Part shown: piece by piece, positions 21,165-47,552 of the stretch | How positions within the stretch are numbered: position 1 is the stretch's first letter | Layout: each line of letters starts with the position of its first letter | Source: Hyalangium versicolor | GTDB taxonomy: Bacteria > Myxococcota > Myxococcia > Myxococcales > Myxococcaceae | Length of the DNA stretch: 64,000 bases | NCBI RefSeq assembly: GCF_020103695.1 | Contig: NZ_JAHXBF010000010.1 | Span: 310,001 to 374,000, forward strand | Direction: 5' to 3' | The notes under the pieces: generated by a model | Told to the model about the DNA's origin: nothing | Seen by the model: only the letters and a program-made list of their open reading frames with translations | The model's database searches: none | Position numbers and translations under genes: made by a program

Positions 21165-22778
21165 CTAGCGGTTCATCGAGCCCAGGAAGTCGATGTTCGA
21201 CGGCGTGGGGCGCATGTGCTTGAGCACGAACTCCATCGCGTCGATCGGCGTGAACGGGTGGAGCACCTGCCGCAGGGCGGTGATGCGGATGAGGTCCGCC
21301 TGGCTCAGCAGCAGCTCCTCCTTGCGCGTGCCGGACTTGTTGATGTCGAGGCACGGGAAGATGCGCTTCTCGAAGAGCTTGCGGTCCAGGACGATTTCCG
21401 AGTTACCGGTGCCCTTGAACTCCTCGAAGATGACCTCGTCCATGCGGCTGCCGGTGTCGATGAGCGCCGTGCCGATGATGGTGAGGCTGCCGCCCTCCTC
21501 GATGTTGCGCGCGGCGCCGAAGAAGCGCTTGGGCTTGTGGAGCGCGTTGGCGTCCACACCGCCGGAGAGGATCTTCCCGGAGGCCGGCACCACCGTGTTG
21601 TAGGCGCGCGCCAGACGGGTGATGGAGTCCAGCAGGATGCACACGTCGTACTTCTGCTCGACCAGGCGCTTGGCCTTGTCGATGACCATCTCGGCCACCT
21701 GCACGTGGCGCGTGGCGGGCTCGTCGAAGGTGGAGGAGACCACCTCGCCGCGCACGCTGCGCTCCATGTCCGTGACTTCCTCCGGGCGCTCGTCCACGAG
21801 CAGGACCATGAGGTAGACGTCCGGGTGGTTGCGCGCGATGGCGTGCGCGATGTTCTGCAGGAGCACCGTCTTACCGGCCTTCGGCGGCGCGACGATGAGG
21901 CAGCGCTGGCCCAGGCCGATGGGGCAGAACAGATCGATGATGCGGGTCGTCATCTCCGACCCCTCGTGCTCCAGCTTCAGCTTGCGCGTGGGGTAGAGCG
22001 GCGTGAGGTTGTCGAAGAGGATGCGCTCGCGGGCCGCCTCGGACATGGGGTCCGCGAAGTTGACCCTGTCCACCTTCTGGAGGGCGAAGAAGCGCTCGCC
22101 CTCGCGCGGCTGGCGGATGGGGCCCGTCACCGTGTCGCCGGGCCGCAGGTTGAAGCGGCGCACCTGCGACGGGGACACGTAGATGTCGTCCGGGCTGGGC
22201 TGGTAGTCGCTGTCGGAGCTGCGCAGGAAGCCGAAGCCGTCGCTGAGCAGCTCGAGCACGCCCTCGGCGTGGACCTCGAAACGCTTGTCGGCGATGCCCG
22301 AGAGCAGCGCGAAGATCAGGTCCTGCTTCTTCAGTCCCTGGTAGCCCTCGATGCTGAAGTCGTGGGCCATCTTCGCCAGCTCGGTGATCTTCATCCGCTT
22401 CAGGTCATTGAGCTTGATGACCTGCATCGGAGCGCCATCGCGTGTCACCTCCGTGACAGCGGGCATCTCGGAGGGCTCGGCGGCGGGGGCGGCCGGCTCG
22501 GCGGCGGCGACGGCGCGGGCTTCCTGGAATTCCTCGTCGCGCACTGGGCGCGGCATGGGGGTCAGCACGGGGCGGGGGGCCTCGGCGGCCTCCTCGGCGG
22601 CCTCGGGCTCGGGAGCCTCCTCCTCTTCGGTGCGGCGGGAGGCGGTGCGGCGGCGCGTGGGGCGCTCGGGTTCTTCACGCTCGCTGGCCTTGGCTGTCTT
22701 GCGGCCACGCTTGGGGCGCTCCTCTTCGGCAGGGAGGGCGTGATCAACCTTTTCTTTGGTGGAACGGGCTTTGCGCAT
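21165..22778 (-). CDS. rho: Transcription termination factor Rho
   Basis: 537 residues from the ATG at 22778. A charged Arg/Glu/Pro/Ala-rich N-terminal extension of about 105 residues precedes the Rho N domain ([19 protein letters not shown]) and the cold-shock-like RNA-binding domain ([20 protein letters not shown]). The ATPase core has Walker [13 protein letters not shown], Walker [19 protein letters not shown]-loop [20 protein letters not shown] and R-loop [10 protein letters not shown]. The ring ATPase ends transcription on C-rich RNA. The N-terminal extension, common in high-GC bacteria, may add RNA binding. The leader upstream is highly structured. Confidence 0.96.
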
Positions 22779-22955
22779 GATGGGGGAAGCGGTGCTGAGG
22801 GGCGCCCGAGGTTTCGAGCGCGGGGCTGTTGGCGGAAGTTTTCGCGGGGTGCGAGAAGGCACCGTCCTGGCGACACTGAGCGACTCGCCCGAAGCCCGCG
22901 GAGGACCGAAGGAGAGTCGAAGGGTGTTGGGAAGAAAGGGCACCAGGGGAACCCT

Positions 22956-36272: not shown

Positions 36273-37661
36273 ATGACCGGACTCCAACCCCTGCGTCACC
36301 TGCGCACGAAGCTGGCCGGATGGGCCCAGAAGACCTGGGAGCCCGTGTCGCAGACGTCCATGGGCCGCTTCGCGGCGGACGTCTACCTGGCCGCGCGGGC
36401 GCTGGTCCGAGACTTCCAGGGTGAGAACATCAGCCTCCGGGCGGCGGCGCTCACCTACATCAGCGTCTTCTCACTCATCCCGCTGGTGACCGTGGTGCTC
36501 GCGCTCCTGCGGAGCCTCCACCAGGAGGAGTTCCAGCGGCGCATGCGCAGCGCCATCTACGTGGCGCTCGCTCCGGGCATCCGTGAGCAGTCCTCCGAGT
36601 TCTTCGATCGCTTCCTCACGACAGCCAACTCGATCGCCATCGGCAGCGTGGGCTTCGTGGCGCTGCTGTTCTCCGCGGCCTCGCTGCTGCGCAACATCGA
36701 CGGGGCCGTCAACGAGGTGTGGGGCATCCGGCGCCAACGCCCCATCCTCGTCCGCGCGCTCATCTACCTGGGGTTGCTGCTGCTGGGGCCTGTGTTCCTC
36801 GCCGCCTCCTTCGCTGGCACGGGGGCGGTGCGCGGCCTCATCGTGAATGCGGGCTACTCCGTCGCACCGCAGATCCTCCTGATCACCACGACCGCGCTCG
36901 CCGTGTCGAGCATGACGCTGCTCTACTACTGGACGCCCTACGCCAAGGTGCAGGTGCGCTCGGCGCTGGCGGGGGGCATCGTGTCGGGGTTGGGGTGGGT
37001 GATCGCCAAGGAGCTCTACCAGCAGTTCGCCGAGCAGCTCTTCCGGTACGACAAGCTCTGGGGCTCTCTGAGCGTCGTGCCGCTGTTCCTGGCGTGGATC
37101 CACATCAGCTGGCTGCTGGTCCTCAGTGGTGCGCGTTTGTCCTACGCGGTGGAGCACGCCTCCTTCCGGGACTCGCTGTGGGCCTTTGGCAACCACCCGC
37201 GAGCCCTGGAGCTGGTCGCCACCCGTGTCGCCATGGAGGCCACCCTGGCCTGGGTCGACGGTCAGCCTCCCCCCCTGCCTCGGGAGATGGCGCTCCAACT
37301 GCGAGTACCCGAGTCCTTCGTCCATGACGTCATCGAGCGCATGGCGAACGCGAGCCTGCTGGTGCTGGGCCGGAAGGGGGGCGTCCAGCCAGCCCGGGAC
37401 CCCTCTGATCTCTCCCTGGCCGAGATCTCCAGCGCCATTCACGGCGTCACCATCCTGGGGGGACCGGAGACCTGGACGGGCCCTCGAGGGGCTACCGGCT
37501 TCGAGCAGGTGGAGGTTCTCTTCCACACCGCCGACTGCGCCACGGCGGACGTGCTGCGCCGGACGAAGTGGATCGATCTGATCGCCCCCCTGCGCCCCGG
37601 GCTGGCGGTGACGGCAACTCCCGAGGCCCCTGCCCCTTCGGCCACGGTGGCCCGCGGCTGA
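36273..37661 (+). CDS. YihY/BrkB-type membrane protein with C-terminal winged-helix domain
   Basis: 462 residues. Six membrane helices of the YihY fold occupy about 55-325; family signatures ALTYISVFSLIPLVTVVLA, WGIRRQRPILVRALIY and GSLSVVPLFLAWIHISWLLV are visible. The last about 130 residues are soluble and contain a winged-helix-like segment (LQLRVPESFVHDVIERMANASLLVLGRKGGV), as seen in YihY proteins of Deltaproteobacteria. The older label RNase BN for this family is known to be wrong. Function unknown. Codes between the RNase G/E and IHF genes on the same strand. Confidence 0.85.
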   Translation: MTGLQPLRHLRTKLAGWAQKTWEPVSQTSMGRFAADVYLAARALVRDFQGENISLRAAALTYISVFSLIPLVTVVLALLRSLHQEEFQRRMRSAIYVALAPGIREQSSEFFDRFLTTANSIAIGSVGFVALLFSAASLLRNIDGAVNEVWGIRRQRPILVRALIYLGLLLLGPVFLAASFAGTGAVRGLIVNAGYSVAPQILLITTTALAVSSMTLLYYWTPYAKVQVRSALAGGIVSGLGWVIAKELYQQFAEQLFRYDKLWGSLSVVPLFLAWIHISWLLVLSGARLSYAVEHASFRDSLWAFGNHPRALELVATRVAMEATLAWVDGQPPPLPREMALQLRVPESFVHDVIERMANASLLVLGRKGGVQPARDPSDLSLAEISSAIHGVTILGGPETWTGPRGATGFEQVEVLFHTADCATADVLRRTKWIDLIAPLRPGLAVTATPEAPAPSATVARG

Positions 37662-37795
37662 AATCCGTAAGGTTTCCAAGAGGTTCGAGCCCGTGGCTGC
37701 TTGCAACGGTGGCACGTTCTGTTAAGGTTTGCGGATTCGATCACGGGCCAAAGCGCCCTCCTTCCGAGGGGTCACGCGGTTTGCGGGAGCGTCCG

Positions 37796-38140
37796 ATGCT
37801 CAAGTCCGATTTGATCAACATCCTCGTCGCCAAGCGGGGCGTGACCCAGAAGCAGGCCGAGGCCACCATCGAGACGATCTTCGAATCGATGAAAGAGGCC
37901 CTCTGCCGCGGCGAGAACATCGAGATCCGCGGACTTGGAGCCTTCCACGTCAAGAACTACCAGGGATATCAAGGCCGTAACCCGAAGACGGGTCAGGTCA
38001 TCCCGGTGAAACCCAAGCGGGGTCTGCTGTTCCGGACCGGCAAGGAGCTGCGCGACCGGGTCAACCGGCCGGCACCCCAGTCGGCCCAGCCGGACCTGGC
38101 AGATCCCGGTAAGGGCAACACCGGCACCGGAAGCCTTTGA
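37796..38140 (+). CDS. ihfB: IHF/HU family DNA-binding protein (IHF beta-like)
   Basis: 114 residues from the ATG at 37796 with GGGAG 6 bases upstream. The HU/IHF core MLKSDLINILVAKRGVTQKQ, the signature GRNPKTGQ on the DNA-binding arm and KPKRGLLFRTGKELRDRVN are complete. A Gln/Pro/Gly tail of about 20 residues extends beyond the usual end. It bends DNA as a dimer. Its stop is 6 bases from the stop of sctV on the other strand. Alpha or beta subunit cannot be settled without alignment; the arm pattern fits beta. Confidence 0.9.
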   Translation: MLKSDLINILVAKRGVTQKQAEATIETIFESMKEALCRGENIEIRGLGAFHVKNYQGYQGRNPKTGQVIPVKPKRGLLFRTGKELRDRVNRPAPQSAQPDLADPGKGNTGTGSL

Positions 38141-38146
38141 TTTTCC

Positions 38147-40234
38147 TCATGCGGTGAGCGGCACGGGCGCCAGCCGTCCCAGCGGACGGATCTGCAGGTC
38201 CGCGTCCAGCTCGCCGTAGGTCAGCACGGCCACGTCGGGGAAGGCTCCCTCGATGAGGCGCCGAAGTGCCCTGCGGACATCTGGCGCCGCGAGGAGCACC
38301 GCCCTGCCCCCCGAGGCGATCCGCCGCACGCCTTCCAGGATCTCCGAGACGCGCTCCGGAGACGGAGCAGGCCCACGGGGGCCGCCTCCTCGCAGTGCTT
38401 CCTCCACCTCTGGGTCGACGAGGTAGGCAAAAAGAGGACCCGAGGGAGCGAACTTGTGGCTCAGGTAGCGGTGCAACGCCTGACGGCAGCGCTCGGCGAG
38501 GGCTGTGGCATCACCCTCGGTAGCGGGTGAGACGAGCGCTTCCAAGAGGCCCTTCATGTTCCGGATGCTCACCTGCTCCCGGACGAGCTTGCGCAGCACA
38601 TCGGTGAGCAGCGGCAGCGGCACCTTCTGCAACGCCTCCTTCACCAGCATCGGAGCCTGGGCCTCGAGTCCCTCCAGCAGCCCTTGCACCTCCTGAACAC
38701 CCAGCAGGCTGGCGGCCCGGGCGCGGAGGATGGCGCGGAAGTGGTCCACGATGAGCTCCCCCGGCCGCCGCAGGGGAATCTGCGCCATCTCGAGCCGCGA
38801 TCGACTGGACTCGCTCAGGCGGCTGATCGGTCTGCCCGTGACGGGCTCCACCGCGGGCTCGAGCCGGACTTCGAGGAACGACAGCTCCTCGGGCGAAGCC
38901 AGGGCGTAAAGGGCTCCCGGCGTCACCTGCCCTGTTCCAGCGGGGACCTCATCCACGAGGAGGGCGTAGCCTGCCGCGGGAAGGTAGCCCGCGTGGGTTC
39001 TCACCCGGATGCCCGGCACTCGCACTCCCAGCTCATAGAAGATGTCGTCTCGGAGCTGGTTGAGCAGTTGGTGCACGAAGGCGCCCCCCTGCTGTTCTGC
39101 GATAGCGGTGAGGTCCGGAGAGAGATCCACGGTCAGCGGAGAGACTCCCACCGGGGCCGCCGCGCTCGCTGGAGCCGCTCCCACTCCAGTGCCACCCCCT
39201 CCTCCCTCCGCAGCAGGCTGGGGCTTCTCGGCGGCTGAGGCATCCTTCTCTCCCGCAGCCTTCTTCATCTGCCCGAGCGAATACGCGACGGCTCCCAACA
39301 TGGCGCCCAGCCCGAGGAAGGTCAGGAGTGGCATCCCCGGCATCAACGCCAACGCGGAGCACAGGCCCGAAACGACCCAGAGCGCCCGGGACTGCCCGAA
39401 GAACTGAGCGCCGATCTCCGAGCCAAGTGAATCCTCCTCCTTCTCCGAGGCCACGCGCGTGACGACGAGCCCCGCCGCCACCGCGATGCACAGCGAAGGA
39501 ATCTGGGACACGAGCCCGTCACCGATGGCGATGAGCGCGAAGGTCGAGGCGGCCTCGGACAGGCTCATGCCCTGCTGCCAGACGCCGATGGTGATGCCCC
39601 CGAGCAGGTTCACCGCCACGATGACGAGGCCCGCGATGACATCGCCCTTCACGAACTTCATCGCGCCGTCCATCGCACCGAACATCTGCGACTCGCGCTC
39701 CAGGTTTCGCCTGCGCTGGCGAGCCTGTGCCTGATCGATGGCACCCGCGCGCAGGTCGGCATCAATGGACATCTGCTTGCCCGGCATCGCATCCAATGTG
39801 AAGCGCGCGGACACCTCCGCCACGCGCTCGGCTCCCTTGGCCACGACGAGGAACTGAACGAGAGTGAGGATGGAGAAGAGCACGGCTCCGACGACATAGT
39901 CCCCACGGACGACGAACTCGCCGAAGGCCTGGATGACCTCGCCCGCGTGTCCCTCGGCCAGCGCGAGCCGCGTGGACGACACGTTGAGCGCGAGCCGGAA
40001 GAGCGTGGTGAACAGCAGGAGCGTCGGGAACGCCGTCACCTTGAGCGCGTCCTGGGCGTAGAGGGCCGCGACGAGCAGCGCCACCGCCGCGGCCAGATTG
40101 ATGGCAAGCCCCAGGTCCAGGAGCCACGGTGGCAGTGGAATGATCAGGGCACCGAGCACGGCGGCCATGGCCACCGCGAGCACCACATCCGATGACTTCC
40201 GGGCCCTCGAGAGGATCTTCACAAGCAGGTTCAT
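38147..40234 (-). CDS. sctV: Type III secretion export gate protein SctV (FlhA/YscV family)
   Basis: 695 residues. The N-terminal about 330 residues carry eight membrane helices with the FHIPEP-family stretch FTLDAMPGKQMSIDAD near residue 145. After an Ala/Pro/Gly linker (about 330-365) comes the cytoplasmic domain that forms the nonameric export ring (from PLTVDLSPDLTAIAEQQ). SctV recruits substrate-chaperone complexes and uses the proton motive force. ATG overlaps the sctU stop (ATGA). It is the last gene of the operon and converges on ihfB. Length is typical. Confidence 0.94.
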   Translation of the reverse strand: MNLLVKILSRARKSSDVVLAVAMAAVLGALIIPLPPWLLDLGLAINLAAAVALLVAALYAQDALKVTAFPTLLLFTTLFRLALNVSSTRLALAEGHAGEVIQAFGEFVVRGDYVVGAVLFSILTLVQFLVVAKGAERVAEVSARFTLDAMPGKQMSIDADLRAGAIDQAQARQRRRNLERESQMFGAMDGAMKFVKGDVIAGLVIVAVNLLGGITIGVWQQGMSLSEAASTFALIAIGDGLVSQIPSLCIAVAAGLVVTRVASEKEEDSLGSEIGAQFFGQSRALWVVSGLCSALALMPGMPLLTFLGLGAMLGAVAYSLGQMKKAAGEKDASAAEKPQPAAEGGGGGTGVGAAPASAAAPVGVSPLTVDLSPDLTAIAEQQGGAFVHQLLNQLRDDIFYELGVRVPGIRVRTHAGYLPAAGYALLVDEVPAGTGQVTPGALYALASPEELSFLEVRLEPAVEPVTGRPISRLSESSRSRLEMAQIPLRRPGELIVDHFRAILRARAASLLGVQEVQGLLEGLEAQAPMLVKEALQKVPLPLLTDVLRKLVREQVSIRNMKGLLEALVSPATEGDATALAERCRQALHRYLSHKFAPSGPLFAYLVDPEVEEALRGGGPRGPAPSPERVSEILEGVRRIASGGRAVLLAAPDVRRALRRLIEGAFPDVAVLTYGELDADLQIRPLGRLAPVPLTA

Positions 40235-41277
40235 GATGTCTGACTCCGTGGACGGCCGTCCGTGTCACGAGACTCCATGGCCACGCGAAGCACGACGGCC
40301 GCCGTCTGGTAGAGCTCCTCGGGGATCTGCTCCCCGACGTCGTAGTGGATGAGGCTGCGAGCCAACGGAACGTCCCGAACCACAGGGATTCCGAGCCGTT
40401 GGGCCTCACGCCGGAGCCCGAGTGCATCCGCCTCGCGCCCCTTGGCCACGAGGTAGGGGGCTTCACACTCCTGAGTGTCGTAGCGGAGAGCGACCGCGAT
40501 ATGCGTCGGGTTGACGACCACGGCCGTGCCCCTCTGCACCCCACGTGCAGGTCCTCCCTGTGCCAACTGGCGATGGAGCGCCTTACGCTGCGCCTTGTGG
40601 TGCGGATCGCCCTCGCTCTCCTTGAACTCCCGCTTCACCTCTTCGCGGGTCATCATCAGGTCCTTGAGGTGCCGCCTCCGCGCCAACGCGTAATCGACAA
40701 GCCCCAGGACCAGCAGCACCCACGCGATGCGGGTCGCCAGCGGCACCAGCCGCTCCATCAGCTGGCTCAGCCCCACAGCGCCCTCCAACCACACCGCGCG
40801 CAGTGCATCCGGGCCGGCCGCTTCCGCTTCATTCCACACGAGGACCGCGACCACGCCCATCACCACCAGGGCCTTGGCCACATCCACCAGCGAGCGGACA
40901 CTGAAGAGACGCTTGAGGCCCGCGGCAGGACTGATGCGCTCCAGCTTGGGAGCCATGTGCTCCGGGTTCAGCTCGAACCCCACCATCGCTACCGAAACCC
41001 CCAAAGAGGCCACCAGCGCACCCCCAAGGGCAGGCCCGGACAGACGCGCCATCATCCACAGTGTTTCCTCCCAGGCTCCCTCACTTCGAGGCTCCAGCAA
41101 CAGGCGAGCGGTCCACTCCTTCAAACGCTCGAAGCCATCGGGGGCGAAGGCCGTGAAACCGAGCAGGCTGCCCAAGGTCACCGCGCTGGAGGACAGCAAC
41201 CGGCTGCGAGGTATCTGCCCCTTTCTGCGAGCATCACGCAGGCGCTTCGCGGAGGGCTTTTCTGTCTTCTCGCTCAT
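40231..41277 (-). CDS. sctU: Type III export switch protein SctU (FlhB/YscU family)
   Basis: 348 residues from the ATG at 41277, which overlaps the sctT stop (ATGA). Four membrane helices lie between about 28 and 195. The self-cleavage motif NPTH is at 256-259 (AVVVNPTHIAVAL), the switch that changes export specificity. The linker REEVKREFKESEGDPHHKAQ is the conserved cytoplasmic hinge. Gene order U before V matches both flagellar flhB-flhA and many injectisomes. Upstream in-frame sequence belongs to the sctT gene and is not part of this protein. Confidence 0.94.
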   Translation of the reverse strand: MSEKTEKPSAKRLRDARRKGQIPRSRLLSSSAVTLGSLLGFTAFAPDGFERLKEWTARLLLEPRSEGAWEETLWMMARLSGPALGGALVASLGVSVAMVGFELNPEHMAPKLERISPAAGLKRLFSVRSLVDVAKALVVMGVVAVLVWNEAEAAGPDALRAVWLEGAVGLSQLMERLVPLATRIAWVLLVLGLVDYALARRRHLKDLMMTREEVKREFKESEGDPHHKAQRKALHRQLAQGGPARGVQRGTAVVVNPTHIAVALRYDTQECEAPYLVAKGREADALGLRREAQRLGIPVVRDVPLARSLIHYDVGEQIPEELYQTAAVVLRVAMESRDTDGRPRSQTS

Positions 41278-42068
41278 CGCGCCATGTCCCCCAAGAGCCT
41301 CAGTGCCCCCTCCACCCCCGCAACCCCGCTGAGGAGACGTTCGGAGAGAACACCCACCCCGAGCCACACGAGCGCGCCGCCGCCCAGGACGCGCAGCGGA
41401 GTGCCCAGTTCGCGAAGATTCATCTGGGGCGCCGCACGGGATGCCATGCCCACGAGGCAGTCCACCATCATCACTGCTGCTGCGACCGGAGCCCCCACCG
41501 CCAACCCCGTCGCTATCGCTCCACCCGCGAGCGTCACGACGTAGAGCGCCGCAGTCTCCGAAGGAACGAAGGTCCCCAAACCCACCACCCCGAAGCCCCG
41601 TAGCAATCCCGAGAGGACCACCGGGAACACGCCACCCGTCACCACCAGCGAGACGAGCAACTGATACAGCGCATCCCCGGTAGCGGATTCACGAGTTCCC
41701 ACGAGAGGAAGGCTCGCCTCGGCGGACGTTCCCCTGAAGAGATCAATGAAGCGTCCTCCCATGCGGGCCGCATCGAAGGGCAACGCTGCGATGAGCCCCA
41801 CGGAGGTGCCATAGACCAGCTCCTTGATCACGAGCGCCACCAGCGTCACGGGCGTCTCCATCGGAACCGGCAGGCCAACTCCCGCGACCAGGTGAAGAAA
41901 GAGCGAGAGGCTCAATACGAGCGAGAGCCTGACGGTCGTAGGAGTCCCCTGCCCGCCCAGGAGCGGGCAGAGGAACGCCACCGGCAGGAGTCGTGACGCA
42001 CAGAGCGCTACGGAGACGATGTGCGGCCCCAGCAACTCGAGCTGCGCACGAAGAAGCGAGAGGTTCAT
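41274..42068 (-). CDS. sctT: Type III export apparatus protein SctT (FliR/YscT family)
   Basis: 264 residues from the ATG at 42068, overlapping the sctS stop. Six hydrophobic segments; LPVAFLCPLLGGQGTPTTVR and VIKELVYGTSVGLIAALPF match conserved FliR/SctT stretches near the first loop. It forms part of the helical export gate with SctR and SctS. A longer open frame upstream of 42068 lies inside sctS and is not used. Membrane location, essential role in export by family knowledge. Confidence 0.92.
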   Translation of the reverse strand: MNLSLLRAQLELLGPHIVSVALCASRLLPVAFLCPLLGGQGTPTTVRLSLVLSLSLFLHLVAGVGLPVPMETPVTLVALVIKELVYGTSVGLIAALPFDAARMGGRFIDLFRGTSAEASLPLVGTRESATGDALYQLLVSLVVTGGVFPVVLSGLLRGFGVVGLGTFVPSETAALYVVTLAGGAIATGLAVGAPVAAAVMMVDCLVGMASRAAPQMNLRELGTPLRVLGGGALVWLGVGVLSERLLSGVAGVEGALRLLGDMAR

Positions 42069-42334
42069 ATCGCCACCTCGGCGATGGCCATGAGCAACTG
42101 GTGGGTGAAGCGCGTGAGTTCCCCGGCAATCCAAGGTCCGGCGAGCACGAGCGCCAGCACCGCCGCGCACAGCTTCGGCACCACCGAGAGGGTGCTCTCC
42201 TGGAGCTGGGTGGTCGCCTGAAAGACGCTCATGATGAAGCCCACCACCAGGCTCGCGCCGATGGGTGGCAGCGAAGCGAGGACCATCAGGAGCAGGGCCT
42301 CGCGGCCGAGGGCCAGCAGGACATCCTGGGTCAT
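42065..42334 (-). CDS. sctS: Type III export apparatus protein SctS (FliQ/YscS family)
   Basis: 89 residues, exactly the usual size, from the ATG at 42334, 4 bases after the sctR stop. Two membrane helices; MTQDVLLALGREALLLMVLAS and GFIMSVFQATTQLQESTLS carry the family pattern (the Q.TQ.QE loop). It builds the outer turn of the export gate helix with SctR and SctT. Stop overlaps the sctT start (ATGA). Confidence 0.93.
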   Translation of the reverse strand: MTQDVLLALGREALLLMVLASLPPIGASLVVGFIMSVFQATTQLQESTLSVVPKLCAAVLALVLAGPWIAGELTRFTHQLLMAIAEVAI

Positions 42335-42338
42335 GGCA

Positions 42339-43064
42339 TCACCGGTACCCGAGGATGAGCCCGCGTGCGAGCAGCGACCAGCCATCCACGGCGACGAAGA
42401 GGAGGATCTTGAAGGGCAGACTCACCTGGCTCGGAGACAGCGTTTGCATGCCCAGGGCGAGCAGGACGTTGGCGATGACCATGTCAAGCACCAGGAACGG
42501 CAGGAAGATGAGGAAGCCGATCTGGAAGGCCTCCTTCAGCTCGGTGATGACAAAGGCCGGGACGACCACGAAGAGATCCGTGTCCTGCACCTGTCCTGCC
42601 TCCTCGGGCGGCCGGAGTTCGCGCGCGAGGTCCACGAAGAGCGCTCGCTCCTCCGGGCTCCCATGCTTGACCAGGAAGGTCCGCAGCGGGTCCGCCACCC
42701 GAGCCGTCGCGGCGAGGATCTGCGCGCCAGACTCCACCTCCTGGTAGGCCGACTGGCCCGCGTCGTACATGCGCTCCATCACCGGCGACATGATGTGCGC
42801 CGAGAGCACCGCCGCCAGTCCGGTCAGGACGATGGTCGGCGGAGCCTGCTGCGTTCCCATCGCCGTGCGCGCGAATGACAGCACCACGGCGATCTTCGAG
42901 AAGCTCGTCAGCATCAGCACCGCGAACGGCAGCAGCGACATCAGCGCGAGAACCGCCATCATCGCCAACGGGTTGCCGGCGTATGAGGCCTGCGAGAGCG
43001 TCTGCTCCCTTGCCATGGCCCACGCCGGCACCAGCAGAAGACCCACGAAGAATCCCGGCTTCAT
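42339..43064 (-). CDS. sctR: Type III export apparatus protein SctR (FliP/YscR family) with signal-peptide-like start
   Basis: 241 residues; ATG overlaps the stop of the FliO-like gene. The FliP/SctR core is clear: SLLPFAVLMLTSFSKIAVV, RTAMGTQQAPPTIVL, FVVVPAFVITELKEAFQIG and PSQVSLPFKILLFV. The first 18 residues (MKPGFFVGLLLVPAWAMA) look like a cleavable signal peptide, a feature of flagellar FliP that most injectisome SctR proteins lack. SctR pentamer forms the core of the export gate. The adjacent FliO-like gene fits this flagellar character. Confidence 0.94.
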   Translation of the reverse strand: MKPGFFVGLLLVPAWAMAREQTLSQASYAGNPLAMMAVLALMSLLPFAVLMLTSFSKIAVVLSFARTAMGTQQAPPTIVLTGLAAVLSAHIMSPVMERMYDAGQSAYQEVESGAQILAATARVADPLRTFLVKHGSPEERALFVDLARELRPPEEAGQVQDTDLFVVVPAFVITELKEAFQIGFLIFLPFLVLDMVIANVLLALGMQTLSPSQVSLPFKILLFVAVDGWSLLARGLILGYR

Positions 43065-43486
43065 CGCACAGCCCCTCTCAGCCGCTGCGGACCTCGGCGG
43101 CGCAGCCCAGACCCGCGCGCCTGCGCCAGCGCAGGCCTGAGAGCCGGAGCGGGATGGATCTCGGCGAAGGAGTCACCAAAGGCCACCAGGAAGCTGCGGC
43201 CATCCATCTCCACCAGCGCGAGGCCACACCGCTGGGAGAGACCAGCGCGGGAGACGACTCTCAAACGCTCGGGCAGCGTGAACCGAGGCCCAGCAGCGCC
43301 ACGGCTCCACAACCACGCGCCCAGCCCCACGAGGACCCCGGCGCCCAGCAACCACCGCGCCGCTCCCGAAGACGACAGCCCGCCCAAGGGAGCCACCACC
43401 GCGAGCCCAAGAATGAGTCCGCTCGCAATCAACAGGCGCTTCTGGGGAGACAGCGAGGCAAGCATGGCATTTCCTCGAGCGCTCAC
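43061..43486 (-). CDS. FliO-like small membrane protein of the type III operon
   Basis: 141 residues from a GTG at 43486 overlapping the sctQ stop (GTGA); ATG at 43465 is the alternative. Two hydrophobic segments (LLIASGLILGLAVVAPLGGL; ARWLLGAGVLVGLGAWLW) precede LRVVSRAGLSQRCGLALVEM and RSFLVAFGDSF, the FliO/MopB pattern of a small beta domain that follows a membrane helix. In flagella FliO helps FliP assemble. It sits directly before sctR, where fliO sits before fliP. Injectisomes normally have no FliO. Assignment rests on pattern, size and position. Confidence 0.65.
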   Translation of the reverse strand: MSARGNAMLASLSPQKRLLIASGLILGLAVVAPLGGLSSSGAARWLLGAGVLVGLGAWLWSRGAAGPRFTLPERLRVVSRAGLSQRCGLALVEMDGRSFLVAFGDSFAEIHPAPALRPALAQARGSGLRRRGPQRLRGAVR

Positions 43487-44634
43487 GGCAGCAGGCTCAG
43501 AATGCGGGCGCCGACTTCGCCGTCGATCTCGACCAACTCGGCCCGTGCCACCGCGCGCTCGCCCACTCGCAGCAGCACCGGCTCGCTGGCGTTGATGCGC
43601 AGCGGGAGCAGATGTCCCGGCTTGAGGGCCGCGAGTTCCGAGAGCGGCAGCATCAGCCGCGTCAATTCAATCTCCACATCCACGGGAAGCGGAGGCATGC
43701 CTCCACCCTGCTCGATGACAGTTGCCATGTTGGACTCCAGGGAAAGTGCGCGCCTCAGCGCGCGGGTCAGGGAAAATCCTTCGGGGGTGAAGTCCCCCAT
43801 CAACTCGAAGCCTCGGGTCACCAGGCGTCCTCTGCCTCTGAGGTGATCGCCTCCGTGCAGCACGCCCTCGAAGACGACGACGTCCCCCAGCGTGAGCGCC
43901 TCCAGCGCCGACGGAGTCAGTCGGGTGCGACCGAGAAAGCACCTCGCGCCAATGGACGCCGCGAGGATCTCCGGTGCGATGGTGGAGTCCCGTTGCGCAG
44001 GCAGTTCCTTGCAGACGGACTCGAACACCACCGAGGGCAGCACCAGCCGCCCCCCAGCGGATACCTCGCCCACCATGAGCGAGAGCTCCACACCCAGGTG
44101 AGGCTTGCGCCCCTCCATCCGAGCCAACGCCTCCGCCCGGTTCATCGTTACTCCCGCCAACCGAAAACCCAGGCGAGATTGCAGCTCCGAACGGGACCGA
44201 AGCACCGCCAGCCCGGACAGCACCAGAAAGGCGACCGTTGCCTCTTCCAAACGCGTGAGGCGTGTCACAGGGCTCGGCCGTTGACTGCTCCCCGCCATGC
44301 GCTCCAAAGCGGCGAAGAGGACCGGCAGCTCCAGCTCCAACACCGCCGTCCCTCCCGTCATCGATAGATCCAACAGAATGAAGGCCGCCGTGTGTGCCAG
44401 TCCCGCTGCGGGGATCACCACCGCATCCACCAGCCGCCCGGTGGCGCTCACAGCAGTGCTCAACTCGCGGCTCAGCACCTCACTGACGAGTTGAAGCGCC
44501 TGCCGCCCGAGCTGCGCGACCTGCGGGCGTGCCCCCAACGTCACATGGGCTCGGGTGAGCCGACGTGTGCCGAGCCTCGTCAGCCTGGAGACCTTCGGGA
44601 CTGGAGAGGACGTGCTACGGGATTCGATGTGCAT
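43483..44634 (-). CDS. sctQ: Type III cytoplasmic ring protein SctQ (FliM/FliN, YscQ family)
   Basis: 383 residues from the ATG at 44634. The C-terminal about 75 residues form a SpoA (surface presentation of antigens) domain: VDVEIELTRLMLPLSELAALKPGHLLPL and GERAVARAELVEIDGEVGARIL. A second SpoA-like segment occurs near 230-290 (TPSALEALTLGDVVVFEG). It forms the sorting platform or C-ring under the export gate. No separate fliN-like gene is present. Starts 27 bases after the FliG-like gene. Confidence 0.88.
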   Translation of the reverse strand: MHIESRSTSSPVPKVSRLTRLGTRRLTRAHVTLGARPQVAQLGRQALQLVSEVLSRELSTAVSATGRLVDAVVIPAAGLAHTAAFILLDLSMTGGTAVLELELPVLFAALERMAGSSQRPSPVTRLTRLEEATVAFLVLSGLAVLRSRSELQSRLGFRLAGVTMNRAEALARMEGRKPHLGVELSLMVGEVSAGGRLVLPSVVFESVCKELPAQRDSTIAPEILAASIGARCFLGRTRLTPSALEALTLGDVVVFEGVLHGGDHLRGRGRLVTRGFELMGDFTPEGFSLTRALRRALSLESNMATVIEQGGGMPPLPVDVEIELTRLMLPLSELAALKPGHLLPLRINASEPVLLRVGERAVARAELVEIDGEVGARILSLLP

Positions 44635-44661
44635 CGGAAACTCCTGTGCTGCGAAATAGGT

Positions 44662-45192
44662 TCAACGTGTGACTTCGCGGATCAACCGCTCCGCCAGCGC
44701 GGCCAGCGCGGGCGTCGGCGATGCATCGGCAGGCACCACGCGCCGCTTCGGGAAAAAGGTGCGGTGGTACGGCGGCAGCCTGCGGAAGATCTCCTGCTTG
44801 AGTGCTTCAGGAGCCTCTGACATCAAGGCTCGGAGTTCGTCCGCCGGGTCGCTCCGCATCCCGAACTCCCGTGCCACCCGGGCCTGCCGCTGAGCCGAGG
44901 TGAGCGCCGCGAATCCCGTCAGATGCTCCTTGGCTCGCTCTGCCTCGCGCTCTCCGAGCCCCTCGAGCAACTCCACGGCTCGCTCCCGCCCGAACACCAG
45001 CGCTACCAACGCGTACCTCGCCAGAGGCAGCAGGGCAGGAGGAGTTCTCGAAGCCGCCACCTTCCCGGTGGGAACTTTCCGCACCGGGGCTCGCACAGCC
45101 TTCGCTCCGGGCAGGGGATTGCGCGTGATGCGCGTGGCCTCATCGGCATTCCCCTTTGCGACCGGCTTCCGGACGATCCGTGTGACTTCCAT
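44662..45192 (-). CDS. FliG N-domain-like protein of the type III operon
   Basis: 176 residues from the ATG at 45192. A basic N-terminal part with two related blocks (VTRIVRKPVAKG and ATRITRNPLPGAK) is followed at about 75-125 by YALVALVFGRERAVELLEGL then EAERAKEHLTGF and VAREFG. This reproduces the FliG N-terminal domain pattern (Leu-rich helix, Gly, Glu-Arg-Ala, Leu-x-x-Leu, EF). The FliG middle and C-terminal torque domains are missing. It lies between sctJ (FliF) and sctQ (FliM/N), the exact place of fliG in flagellar operons. A SctK- or SctL-like role is the alternative. Not a sure call. Confidence 0.5.
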   Translation of the reverse strand: MEVTRIVRKPVAKGNADEATRITRNPLPGAKAVRAPVRKVPTGKVAASRTPPALLPLARYALVALVFGRERAVELLEGLGEREAERAKEHLTGFAALTSAQRQARVAREFGMRSDPADELRALMSEAPEALKQEIFRRLPPYHRTFFPKRRVVPADASPTPALAALAERLIREVTR

Positions 45193-45211
45193 GGAGTGCC
45201 CTCCCGACGGC

Positions 45212-46012
45212 TCACGCCACCTTGCGCGCGGCATTCGCCGCCACGACAGGGCGCGCAGGAACAGGCGGAACCACCGGCGCAGCAGCCTCGGTCTGGTACT
45301 GCCGCAGGCGCATCGCCACGTACACCAGAGCCCCCGCCAGTCCCGTGAGCACCACGCCCATCACCGCCAACAGCACCCGCAACCGCAGCACGGGCGAACT
45401 CCCAGGGGCCGCCACCTCCACCCGACTCACGGCCTCGTCCACGAGGAGCGACACCGCCTCGGGAGCGAGCCCCTCCACGCCTCCCGAGATGAGCGCCTTG
45501 AGCTGCTCCTGTGACTGGCGGACCCGATTGCCCTGCCCAGGCGCCGTGCGCACCATCGCCGACGCCTTCGCGGGCACCGCCGTCTGTCCAGGACGTGGAA
45601 CCGGAGGCACCATCAAGTGCACCCGCGCGACCAACACTCCCTCCACGCCCTGGAGTGTCTTCTCCAGCCCCCGCTCGAGCACCTGCACCCGGCAGAGCTG
45701 CTCCTCCACCGGCGAGCGGATGAGCCCACCCCCACCAAAGACATCACAGCCCTCTTCCTCCAAGGGCCTCGGCAATCCCAGCTCCGCCAGGATGCGCACG
45801 GCGTCCGAGGCCTGCTCCTCGTCCACCTCGATGGACCACGTGGGCCTCTTGCCCGCTTCCGGCACCTTGCGAGCATCCACACCTCGCTCGACGAGGACCG
45901 TCTGCAGTTCGTTGGCCTGGCGCTCGTCCAGCCCATGTTGGATGCGCTCCCGGCACGCGGTGATGCTCAGGAGCAGCAGAAGAGAAAGACCGTGTCGAAA
46001 AGTCAGAAACAT
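45212..46012 (-). CDS. sctJ: Type III inner-membrane ring lipoprotein SctJ (YscJ/PrgK, FliF-related)
   Basis: 266 residues from the ATG at 46012. Signal with lipobox SITACRERI makes a lipoprotein, as in injectisome SctJ. The RBM1 fold follows (LDERQANELQTVLVERGVDA, VRILAELGLPRP), then a second ring domain (VEGVLVARVHLMVPPVPRPG) and a C-terminal membrane helix (VLLAVMGVVLTGLAGALVYVAM). A short cytoplasmic tail ends it, shorter than the FliG-binding tail of FliF. The gene follows sctI by 10 bases. Confidence 0.92.
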   Translation of the reverse strand: MFLTFRHGLSLLLLLSITACRERIQHGLDERQANELQTVLVERGVDARKVPEAGKRPTWSIEVDEEQASDAVRILAELGLPRPLEEEGCDVFGGGGLIRSPVEEQLCRVQVLERGLEKTLQGVEGVLVARVHLMVPPVPRPGQTAVPAKASAMVRTAPGQGNRVRQSQEQLKALISGGVEGLAPEAVSLLVDEAVSRVEVAAPGSSPVLRLRVLLAVMGVVLTGLAGALVYVAMRLRQYQTEAAAPVVPPVPARPVVAANAARKVA

Positions 46013-46022
46013 GGGTCGTTCC

Positions 46023-46508
46023 TCAAACCTGCGTCTGCAGCACTTGCTTGATGCCGCCCGTCGCCTTCTCGACGACCTTCCCCGCAAGATCGAGCTCCTG
46101 GCTCGCGGCGTACACGTGGGCCTGGAAGGCGAGCAGCTCCGCGGGAGTGAACGTCCGCCCGGACTCGGCCAGCGCGAGGATGTGGTCCAGCCGCTTCTGC
46201 GCCTGACTCACCCGCTCGATCATCTGCGCGGCCTGTTGCTCTCGCGCCGACTGCACCGAGTCCGCCCGCGTCCCGGGCTTCACCTCCATCCTGCCCGCCG
46301 AGGCCCGCTCCACCGTCTGCGCCCGCTGCGGCCCGCTCACCGCCTCCGAGGGCGCAGAGCGAGCCGGCCCCTCCATCGACACGGGAATGCCCGCCCCGCC
46401 CCCTCCGCCCTTCACGCCCTCAAGCACCTTGCCGAACTGCTGCTTGCCGGTCTCCAGCGCAGGAGAGACTCCCGCGCCTCCGACCGAGCCCACCTTGTCG
46501 ATCGCCAT
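46023..46508 (-). CDS. sctI: Inner rod protein SctI/FliE-like
   Basis: 161 residues, longer than usual rods because of a Gly/Ser-rich N-terminal half. The C-terminal about 75 residues are helical and end LAFQAHVYAASQELDLAGK followed by VVEKATGGIKQVLQTQV. This matches the SctI (YscI/PrgJ) C-terminus and also recalls FliE, whose ends read near MQV. It anchors the filament base to the export gate. In flagellar operons fliE precedes fliF, as this gene precedes sctJ. Rod family call is probable; SctI versus FliE needs structure comparison. Confidence 0.68.
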   Translation of the reverse strand: MAIDKVGSVGGAGVSPALETGKQQFGKVLEGVKGGGGGAGIPVSMEGPARSAPSEAVSGPQRAQTVERASAGRMEVKPGTRADSVQSAREQQAAQMIERVSQAQKRLDHILALAESGRTFTPAELLAFQAHVYAASQELDLAGKVVEKATGGIKQVLQTQV

Positions 46509-46518
46509 GGAGCCGCCC

Positions 46519-46989
46519 CTAACGGATGTTGTTGATGGCGGCCTTCGCCGAGTCGTGGCGGACCTTCATGATGTTCGAGATGGCGTTGTGCTCGCGGCTC
46601 TCCTTCTGCATCTCGTTCTGGAGCCCCAGGTACGCCATGTTGAACTTCTGCCCGTCCTCAGCCATCAGACGCTGGGCCTCGAGCATGTCCCATGCGTCCC
46701 CCTGCCCCGTTGTCCCGGTCGTGCCCGTCACGCTCCCCGTGCTCCCCGTCCCGGGAATCGGCGTGATGGACGCGTTCGTCGAGCCCACCGACGCGACCGT
46801 CGAGCTCACGCTCGAGACGGCCGCGCTCATCACCGGCCCGCTGGGGACCATGCCTCCGACAATGCTCGCTCCCGTCTTGACGACCTCCTGAGCGGTGCGC
46901 GCAAGCACTGCTCCGAACTCGTTGCGCGGCGTCTGCCGCGCCAGGGTGGGGGTGATGGACAGCGACGCGATTCGATTGTTGTTCTCCAC
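46519..46989 (-). CDS. Needle-like (SctF/PrgI-type) protein with long N-terminal extension
   Basis: 156 residues from a GTG at 46989 with AGGAG 7 bases upstream. First gene of the type III operon. The last about 36 residues (LGLQNEMQKESREHNAISN, MKVRHDSAKAAINNIR) line up without gaps with PrgI as I recall it, sharing Q, N-A, S-N, K-V, D, A-I, N and the final R. The first about 100 residues are Thr/Ser/Gly/Val-rich and not needle-like; usual needles are 80 residues in all. It may be a needle, an early filament protein or a rod. The needle call is from pattern only. Confidence 0.5.
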   Translation of the reverse strand: MENNNRIASLSITPTLARQTPRNEFGAVLARTAQEVVKTGASIVGGMVPSGPVMSAAVSSVSSTVASVGSTNASITPIPGTGSTGSVTGTTGTTGQGDAWDMLEAQRLMAEDGQKFNMAYLGLQNEMQKESREHNAISNIMKVRHDSAKAAINNIR

Positions 46990-47100
46990 GTAGGGTCTCC
47001 TGGTTGAACTGCGCGGAGCCCCCTCTTCAGTTGTCGTGCCAGCGCGAAGTTCCTGGAAGCTCGCGGGGTTACCTACTCAGCAGGTTCAGCGGGAGCCCGC

Positions 47101-47135
47101 CCACCGTCTCGCGAGTCCACGCCGCGAGACGGTGG
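47101..47135. promoter_or_regulatory. Perfect 13-bp inverted repeat between the type III operon and the PilZ gene
   Basis: CCACCGTCTCGCG and CGCGAGACGGTGG flank a 9-base spacer. It lies 112 bases from the type III operon start and 91 bases from the PilZ gene start, in a divergent region of 236 bases. A shared operator or a strong cruciform/hairpin is plausible. No U-tract follows on either strand. Confidence 0.55.
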
Positions 47136-47225
47136 CCATCCCGCCGCGCGCGCCGCCCGAAAAGTTGCGAACTCGGATCCCTGCTTCAGACTGCTCCCGA
47201 CCTGTTGCACCGAGGAGATCCGGAA

Positions 47226-47552
47226 ATGCTACCCACCGCCAATCCCCGCACAGCCGATCGCTTCCACCCCCGCGTCGAGGCCCGGCTCATGGTCAAGGTC
47301 CTCCTCTCGGGGCGGCCCGCCGTCCTCGCCAAGGCGCGCGACGTGTCCATGGCGGGCCTCTTCCTCCACGCCCACCCCGCCAGCTCCCTGAGCGAGCTCA
47401 CCCTGGCCATCCCCCTGCCGGATGACCGGGAGATCACCGCCACCTGCACCATCGTCCGCCGGGAGCCCAATGGCGTGGCGCTCGAGTTCGGCACGCTCGA
47501 CTGGGATGACTTCCTCGCGCTGGCCCGCTACGTCCACCCGCTCCTGCCCTGA
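47226..47552 (+). CDS. PilZ domain protein (probable c-di-GMP receptor)
   Basis: 108 residues from the ATG at 47226 (GGAG 8 bases upstream). A single PilZ domain with both ligand motifs: RxxxR as R12-FHP-R16 and DxSxxG as D39-VSMA-G44. These contacts predict cyclic-di-GMP binding. The rest is a six-strand barrel (ELTLAIPLPDDREITATCTI, GVALEFGTL). It is divergent from the type III operon with a shared 236-base region and might sense c-di-GMP for a nearby process; that link is inference. It converges on the response regulator gene. Confidence 0.9.
   Translation: MLPTANPRTADRFHPRVEARLMVKVLLSGRPAVLAKARDVSMAGLFLHAHPASSLSELTLAIPLPDDREITATCTIVRREPNGVALEFGTLDWDDFLALARYVHPLLP

Follow-up and report, generated by a model that had tools for sequence, protein, structure and literature searches.

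The window analysed is a stretch of 64,000 nucleotides from the predatory soil bacterium Hyalangium versicolor (RefSeq assembly GCF_020103695.1, contig NZ_JAHXBF010000010.1, positions 310,001 to 374,000), whose genome measures 13.56 Mb in 101 contigs (completeness 100, contamination 6.92). It carries on its minus strand a type III secretion system (T3SS) operon of eleven genes in the order F-like, SctI, SctJ, FliG-like, SctQ, FliO-like, SctR, SctS, SctT, SctU and SctV. Neither the ATPase SctN nor SctL is encoded in cis, and SctN and SctL are retained in genomes that have no export gate other than that of an operon of this kind. Protein families were assigned with Pfam and NCBIfam models and their curated cut-offs; the features of the locus are as follows.

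37568-38140, plus strand: HU/IHF-family gene (PF00216), flanking marker
38147-40234, minus strand: SctV, export gate (PF00771, 686 bits)
40231-41277, minus strand: SctU (PF01312, 316 bits)
41274-42068, minus strand: SctT (PF01311, 118 bits)
42065-42334, minus strand: SctS (PF01313, 89.5 bits)
42339-43064, minus strand: SctR (TIGR01102, 225.8 bits, above cut-off; Pfam, 224 bits)
43061-43486, minus strand: FliO-like (PF04347, 19 bits, E 1.5e-3; TIGR03500, E 9e-4; both below cut-offs)
43483-44634, minus strand: SctQ, C-ring or sorting platform (FliMN_C, 66 bits; SpaO_YscQ, 94.5, slightly under cut-off)
44662-45192, minus strand: FliG-like, putative adaptor (176 amino acids)
45212-46012, minus strand: SctJ, inner-ring protein (PF01514, 59 bits, above cut-off; TIGR02544 (YscJ), 137 versus 37 for FliF)
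46023-46508, minus strand: SctI, inner rod (PF17001, E 3e-4, below cut-off)
46519-46989, minus strand: F-like, candidate needle or filament subunit (GTG start, 156 amino acids)
47004-47552, plus strand: open reading frame of a PilZ gene (PF07238, 36 bits), flanking marker in Myxococcaceae, outside the machine

The gene content and coordinates of the operon in the initial annotation, which had been made from the sequence alone, were correct: all eleven genes were found where it had placed them, the ihfB and PilZ genes named at the two ends were matched by the HU/IHF-family and PilZ models, and no SctN, SctL or secretin was found among the operon genes. Using the likely starts, neighbouring genes overlap by 4 bases in five of the six pairs from sctQ to sctV, sctS and sctR are spaced by 4 bases and the four remaining gaps in the operon measure 10-27 bases. 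The SctJ reading frame opens at 46087 and its likely ATG start lies at 46012; the sequence LSITAC in SctJ resembles a lipobox, and SctU contains the sequence NPTH, the autocleavage motif. PF17001 was also matched by 21 of 25 SctI relatives.

Two gene products were examined through their relatives. The FliG-like protein itself gave no match to a Pfam or NCBIfam family. FliG_N was matched by 18 of its 40 relatives (best E 1.2e-3), and a fold search placed FliG entries on top, weakly; a sequence-profile search of the family against solved structures gave no FliG match. The nearest named relatives are from Hyalangium. The F-like protein, a homologue of the product of L008:7275-7853 in the long locus described below, likewise had no Pfam or NCBIfam match of its own. 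Among 25 relatives HrpF was matched in 11 and T3SS_needle_F (PF09392) in ten, none better than E 0.01; the best PF09392 value, 0.017, lies below the cut-off for the SctF needle family. No needle structure was found for the family by sequence-profile search against solved structures, and an AlphaFold2 model contained helices only, with one long C-terminal helix (predicted template-modelling score 0.27). A profile comparison of the F-like protein with SctI gave a probability of 12 percent and did not demonstrate homology. The F-like protein is a weak candidate for a needle subunit.

The long locus and the only SctN in the genome

Two SctV genes are present in the genome, that of the window and one on contig C20. 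The latter belongs to a long locus that encodes an F-like protein, a small protein, a FliA/WhiG-like sigma factor, SctI, SctJ, a 688-amino-acid FliG_C protein (24.3 bits; cut-off 23.3), SctL, SctN, SctO and SctP (Flg_hook, 28.6 bits; cut-off 29.8), followed by SctQ, FliO, SctR, SctS, SctT, SctU, a stand-alone FlhB C-terminal protein, several genes and SctV. This is nearly the full flagellar order, with SctL, SctN, SctO and SctP between the FliG-like gene and SctQ, that is, at flagellar positions. The SctN of this locus (C20:13863-15170, 641 bits, above cut-off) is the sole T3SS-type ATPase found in the genome: the five PF00006 matches are this SctN and, as confirmed by models, AtpA, AtpD and two Rho proteins. 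The window contains no SctN, and its only PF00006 match is one of these Rho genes (21165-22943); the second lies at C20:57719-59458.

Several further features of the long locus were recorded. The best match of its sigma factor (L008:8753-9658) was to the FliA/WhiG subfamily (110.6 bits; cut-off 189.6), and many flagellar loci also have, close to flhA, genes that match this subfamily. The stand-alone FlhB C-terminal protein (L009:1928-2209, 93 amino acids) directly follows the full SctU; it is also found in genomes G074, G055 and G022 of the survey below and is absent from G031. Two near-identical 73-amino-acid proteins (L009:4054-4275 and L009:4992-5213), the first of which has no Pfam match, are encoded between SctU and SctV and are possible substrates.

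Of the genes proposed for a whole-genome search in the initial annotation, sctN and sctL were found in the C20 long locus, and sctD and sctC gave nothing above their cut-offs. The SctD model TIGR02500 gave 14 matches in the whole genome, all below cut-off, the best five of them within the first 60 model positions. Three PF00263 secretin genes are present, PilQ and GspD above cut-off and a third that precedes a TadA-like frame (below cut-off), and none exceeds the SctC cut-off. A fuller T3SS elsewhere in the genome, which the initial annotation had named as a refutation of its reading, was thus found in part; within the stretch read, the long locus contains no secretin gene either.

In Myxococcus xanthus two clusters have been named, T3SS* (MXAN_2434-2464) and T3SS(2) (MXAN_5643-5654) (PMC10196010). 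The present operon is near-certainly the published 'short' myxobacterial non-flagellar T3SS (NF-T3SS), an assignment made on gene order, synteny and tree and not on every stated feature. It is equated with T3SS(2) by elimination only, there being two SctV genes per genome of which the other is linked to SctN.

Distribution of short loci and of orphan SctN and SctL

The survey comprised 117 genomes of the order, of which 98 were counted as good; family f1 was taken as Myxococcaceae and f5 is the Anaeromyxobacter family. A SctV/FlhA-class gene was found in 93 of the 117 genomes. A SctN/FliI-class match below 1e-100 was obtained in 89 of these 93 and in two of the 24 without such a gene; among the good genomes SctN/FliI was present in 84 of the 85 with a SctV-class gene, the exception being G083, and in none of the 13 without. 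Genomes of f1 usually have one SctN, close to the long of their two SctV genes. A single SctN was found in each of the 13 single-contig f1 genomes, with 11.8-19.7 kb between its start and the long SctV and a distance of 0.6 Mb or more to the short SctV. Three genomes that bear the code of this family and measure only 2.1-2.7 Mb (G022, G086 and G109) have a single SctV that scores like the long type; the stretch fetched from G022 (L185) spans SctV to SctI and a sigma factor.

Short loci were examined in 31 cases (28 from whole genomes, two named records and the window), of which 27 span F to V and four are cut by contig ends. SctN and SctL were absent from all 31, the only match in the window being Rho. 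Order and neighbours are conserved in f1, in f5 and in the one f2 genome covered: a neighbouring HU/IHF gene was matched in 30 of 31 and is listed directly after V in 28, and a BrkB gene lies nearby in 29. The FliG-like gene was scored in 15 loci and FliO in 22.

The f5 set consisted of 17 genomes at least 90% complete, all of which contain a SctN/FliI-class gene. Ten of them have one FHIPEP gene, which is of the short type (split over two contigs in G018), and exactly one SctN/FliI-class match above 300 bits. The short type was established by sequence in G026, G063, G047, G054 and G038 and deduced from scores in G044, G029, G041, G052 and G018. In the single-contig genomes G026 and G063 the distance between SctN and SctV is 1.67 and 2.37 Mb, respectively. 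A single SctR, SctU and SctJ were confirmed in G026, G063, G054, G047, G038 and in the f1 genome G031. SctL lies beside SctN in all seven of the ten short-only f5 genomes whose SctN surroundings were examined, and the surroundings of all 15 orphan SctN loci of f5 include a homologue of RpoC and frames resembling SctL and a sigma factor, the order in locus L151 being rpoC, sigma factor, NikR (214 bits, above cut-off), sctL and sctN. Walker A is kept in 15 of 15 orphan SctN proteins. These were identified as SctN because of their tree placement and because they score best with the SctN model (567 versus 545 for FliI): in a midpoint-rooted SctN tree a branch with support 99 divides the orphan and long-type SctN proteins from those of FliI and injectisomes. 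Locus L160 of G050 was rejected as an orphan SctN, since the tree places it with FliI; the orphan of this genome is L180.

In G031 the long SctV, SctR, SctU and SctJ are gone and SctL, SctN and a SctO-matching frame remain. Its sctL-sctN pair adjoins a homologue of a gene that flanks the long operon, and in the tree its SctN is united with those of the long type (100).

Phylogeny and interpretation

Trees were quick searches, and composition differs between rows. A SctV tree of 69 rows separated flagella (100), injectisomes (99) and the short clade (100), leaving the branching order of short, long and injectisome unsettled; in approximately unbiased tests neither short plus injectisome (p 0.61) nor long plus injectisome (p 0.63) was rejected. 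In the SctRSTUV concatenate (55 rows, six with less than half of the columns filled) the sampled injectisomes form one clade (Shimodaira-Hasegawa-like approximate likelihood-ratio support 99), the myxobacterial short and long systems stand beside it (93, below the 95 mark) and flagella lie outside (100). Support for short and long as sisters is 93 percent with the five proteins and 15 percent with SctV alone. In neither tree are the operon proteins nested in the injectisome clade. The trees thus support a deep branching of the operon between flagella and injectisomes, which is not new: Abby and Rocha (PMC3459982) placed the root of the non-flagellar T3SSs between the myxobacterial systems and the rest in 2012 and proposed an intermediate ancestral form.

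We propose, with a probability of about 0.6, that the operon is one half of a bipartite machine whose SctL-SctN module is encoded elsewhere and acts in trans. The retention of sctL-sctN in the short-only genomes and in G031 is most simply read as a dependence of the short system on SctL-SctN, whichever locus encodes them. The operon encodes an export gate of the inner membrane, made up of SctRSTUV and the FliO-like factor, and a SctJ ring, which the FliG-like adaptor probably ties to the SctQ C-ring; SctI and the F-like subunit are two candidate early substrates. In most Myxococcaceae the ATPase-stator module of SctL and SctN, perhaps with SctO, would be drawn from the distant T3SS* locus; in the Anaeromyxobacter family it would come from the stand-alone sctL-sctN pair downstream of rpoC. 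Without a dedicated secretin gene, cargo may be delivered to the periplasm or may leave through a borrowed channel.

Several observations weigh against this proposal. Sharing of the ATPase is deduced from gene content, and the SctN that is kept may have another function. A long-type SctN in a short-only genome was found in a single case, G031, and none of the 17 f5 genomes has a SctN above the cut-off of 604.75 bits. SctN/FliI scoring covered the best 13 candidates per genome in nearly every genome. SctV was found without SctN in G083 (930 contigs), G025, G056 and G060, which are fragmented or incomplete, and SctN without SctV in G067 and G071, both incomplete. A covariation of rates between orphan SctN and short SctV in ten genomes was discarded as not specific: RpoC correlates equally, and the IHF control gives as much residual correlation. 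Abby and Rocha also count the ATPase as a core gene of both variants, short and long (PMC3459982); this could refer to a cis ATPase gene in their set, or the paper may count a distant gene as core.

An extension of the proposal, tentative and somewhat short of even odds, is that the two export gates share one SctN-SctL, with T3SS(2) and the predatory T3SS* as competing clients, so that its allocation could set export during growth against export during predation. Both systems would then keep a FliG-like adaptor and a needle-class subunit, and the description 'needleless' would be wrong.

It is unlikely that the short gate is driven by proton-motive force alone, SctN serving only T3SS* or another role. 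Flagellar export without FliI is known under some conditions, and the absence of SctL and SctN from every short locus agrees with such a gate; against it, the short-only genomes keep exactly one SctN in the absence of another export gate, accompanied by SctL wherever its surroundings were examined, and G031 kept sctL-sctN after loss of the long gate and ring. Less probable still is the view of the initial annotation that the missing ATPase marks an ancestral stage between flagellum and injectisome that has stayed frozen and by itself requires no ATPase. The deep branching, the FliO-like and FliG-like genes, the flagellar gene order and the published precedent (PMC3459982) favour it, but the long paralogue in the same genome keeps SctL, SctN, SctO and SctP at flagellar positions, which is most simply explained by an ancestor that had them and by their loss or relocation from the short locus; SctN is moreover kept in the short-only genomes. 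That the operon is a decaying relic, as the missing components and an older annotation of the M. xanthus loci as relics or degenerate (PMC3459982, PMC10196010) would have it, is hardly credible given an order conserved in two families, intact frames and ratios of nonsynonymous to synonymous substitution of 0.12-0.29 in comparison with a Hyalangium relative, where flanking genes give 0.09-0.28, and of 0.14-0.49 in comparison with a more distant one, where they give 0.12-0.60; these values favour a functional operon.

Should the two systems share the ATPase, a T3SS* deletion that takes out sctN or sctL would disable the second system as well, and the phenotypes of such deletions would have to be reinterpreted. 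A T3SS with a genetically separate ATPase module would be a natural test of the dependence of export gates on the ATPase, and a FliG-like adaptor outside flagella would show the junction of C-ring and inner ring in the earliest non-flagellar systems.

Comparison with known systems

With the myxobacterial short NF-T3SS, or M. xanthus T3SS(2), the operon has in common the bacteria, a short locus beside a long one, the absence of a secretin and a deep non-flagellar branch outside the injectisomes, as well as SctI, SctJ, SctQ and SctRSTUV in conserved order. The ATPase listed among its core genes (PMC3459982) is not encoded in cis here, one SctN being present elsewhere in the genome. In the available text a distant ATPase is not described and no FliG-like or needle candidate is named, FliG and SctF being stated as lacking (PMC3459982). 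A shared or split ATPase module, a FliG-like adaptor and a needle candidate were not found for myxobacterial systems in the literature searched; part of this may already be in print. The FliG-like adaptor and the candidate needle subunit are further additions to the described short system.

M. xanthus T3SS*, the long locus, shares with the operon a paralogous export gate, SctJ, SctI, SctQ, the F-like protein, FliO (present in both M. xanthus systems; PMC12248157) and the lack of a secretin. In the present genome the long locus alone has SctL, SctN, SctO, SctP, the FliG_C protein, the FliA/WhiG-like sigma factor and the stand-alone FlhB C-terminal protein. T3SS* is described as containing SctN and as required for prey lysis (PMC12075869, PMC10433427); SctD, listed for it in a review (PMC10433427), was not confirmed by our genome search. 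The link to prey killing drawn for the operon in the initial annotation is not supported, as the published role belongs to T3SS*: T3SS(2) genes are down with prey, and Thiery 2022 is cited for their having no role in prey killing (PMC10196010).

The flagellar T3SS has the same order E/I-F/J-G-[HIJ]-M/N-O-P-Q-R-flhB-flhA, and FliO-like and FliG-like genes are common to both; for SctS the FliQ model gives the higher score (87, against 74 for the SctS model), and SctT scores equally with both kinds of model. Unlike the flagellum, the operon has a SctJ of the YscJ and not the FliF type and no rod, hook, filament or stator genes, and the trees place its proteins outside flagellar FlhA and FliPQR. 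SctJ, SctI, SctQ, SctR, SctU and SctV score better with the models of injectisomes (Ysc, SPI, Hrp, Chlamydia) than with flagellar models; unlike these, the operon has no secretin gene, the genome has no SctC or SctD above cut-off and the proteins fall outside the injectisome clade. The operon, a relative of the flagellar export machine, is of a known though little-studied kind, and what is new is an architecture with a separate, probably shared, ATPase module.

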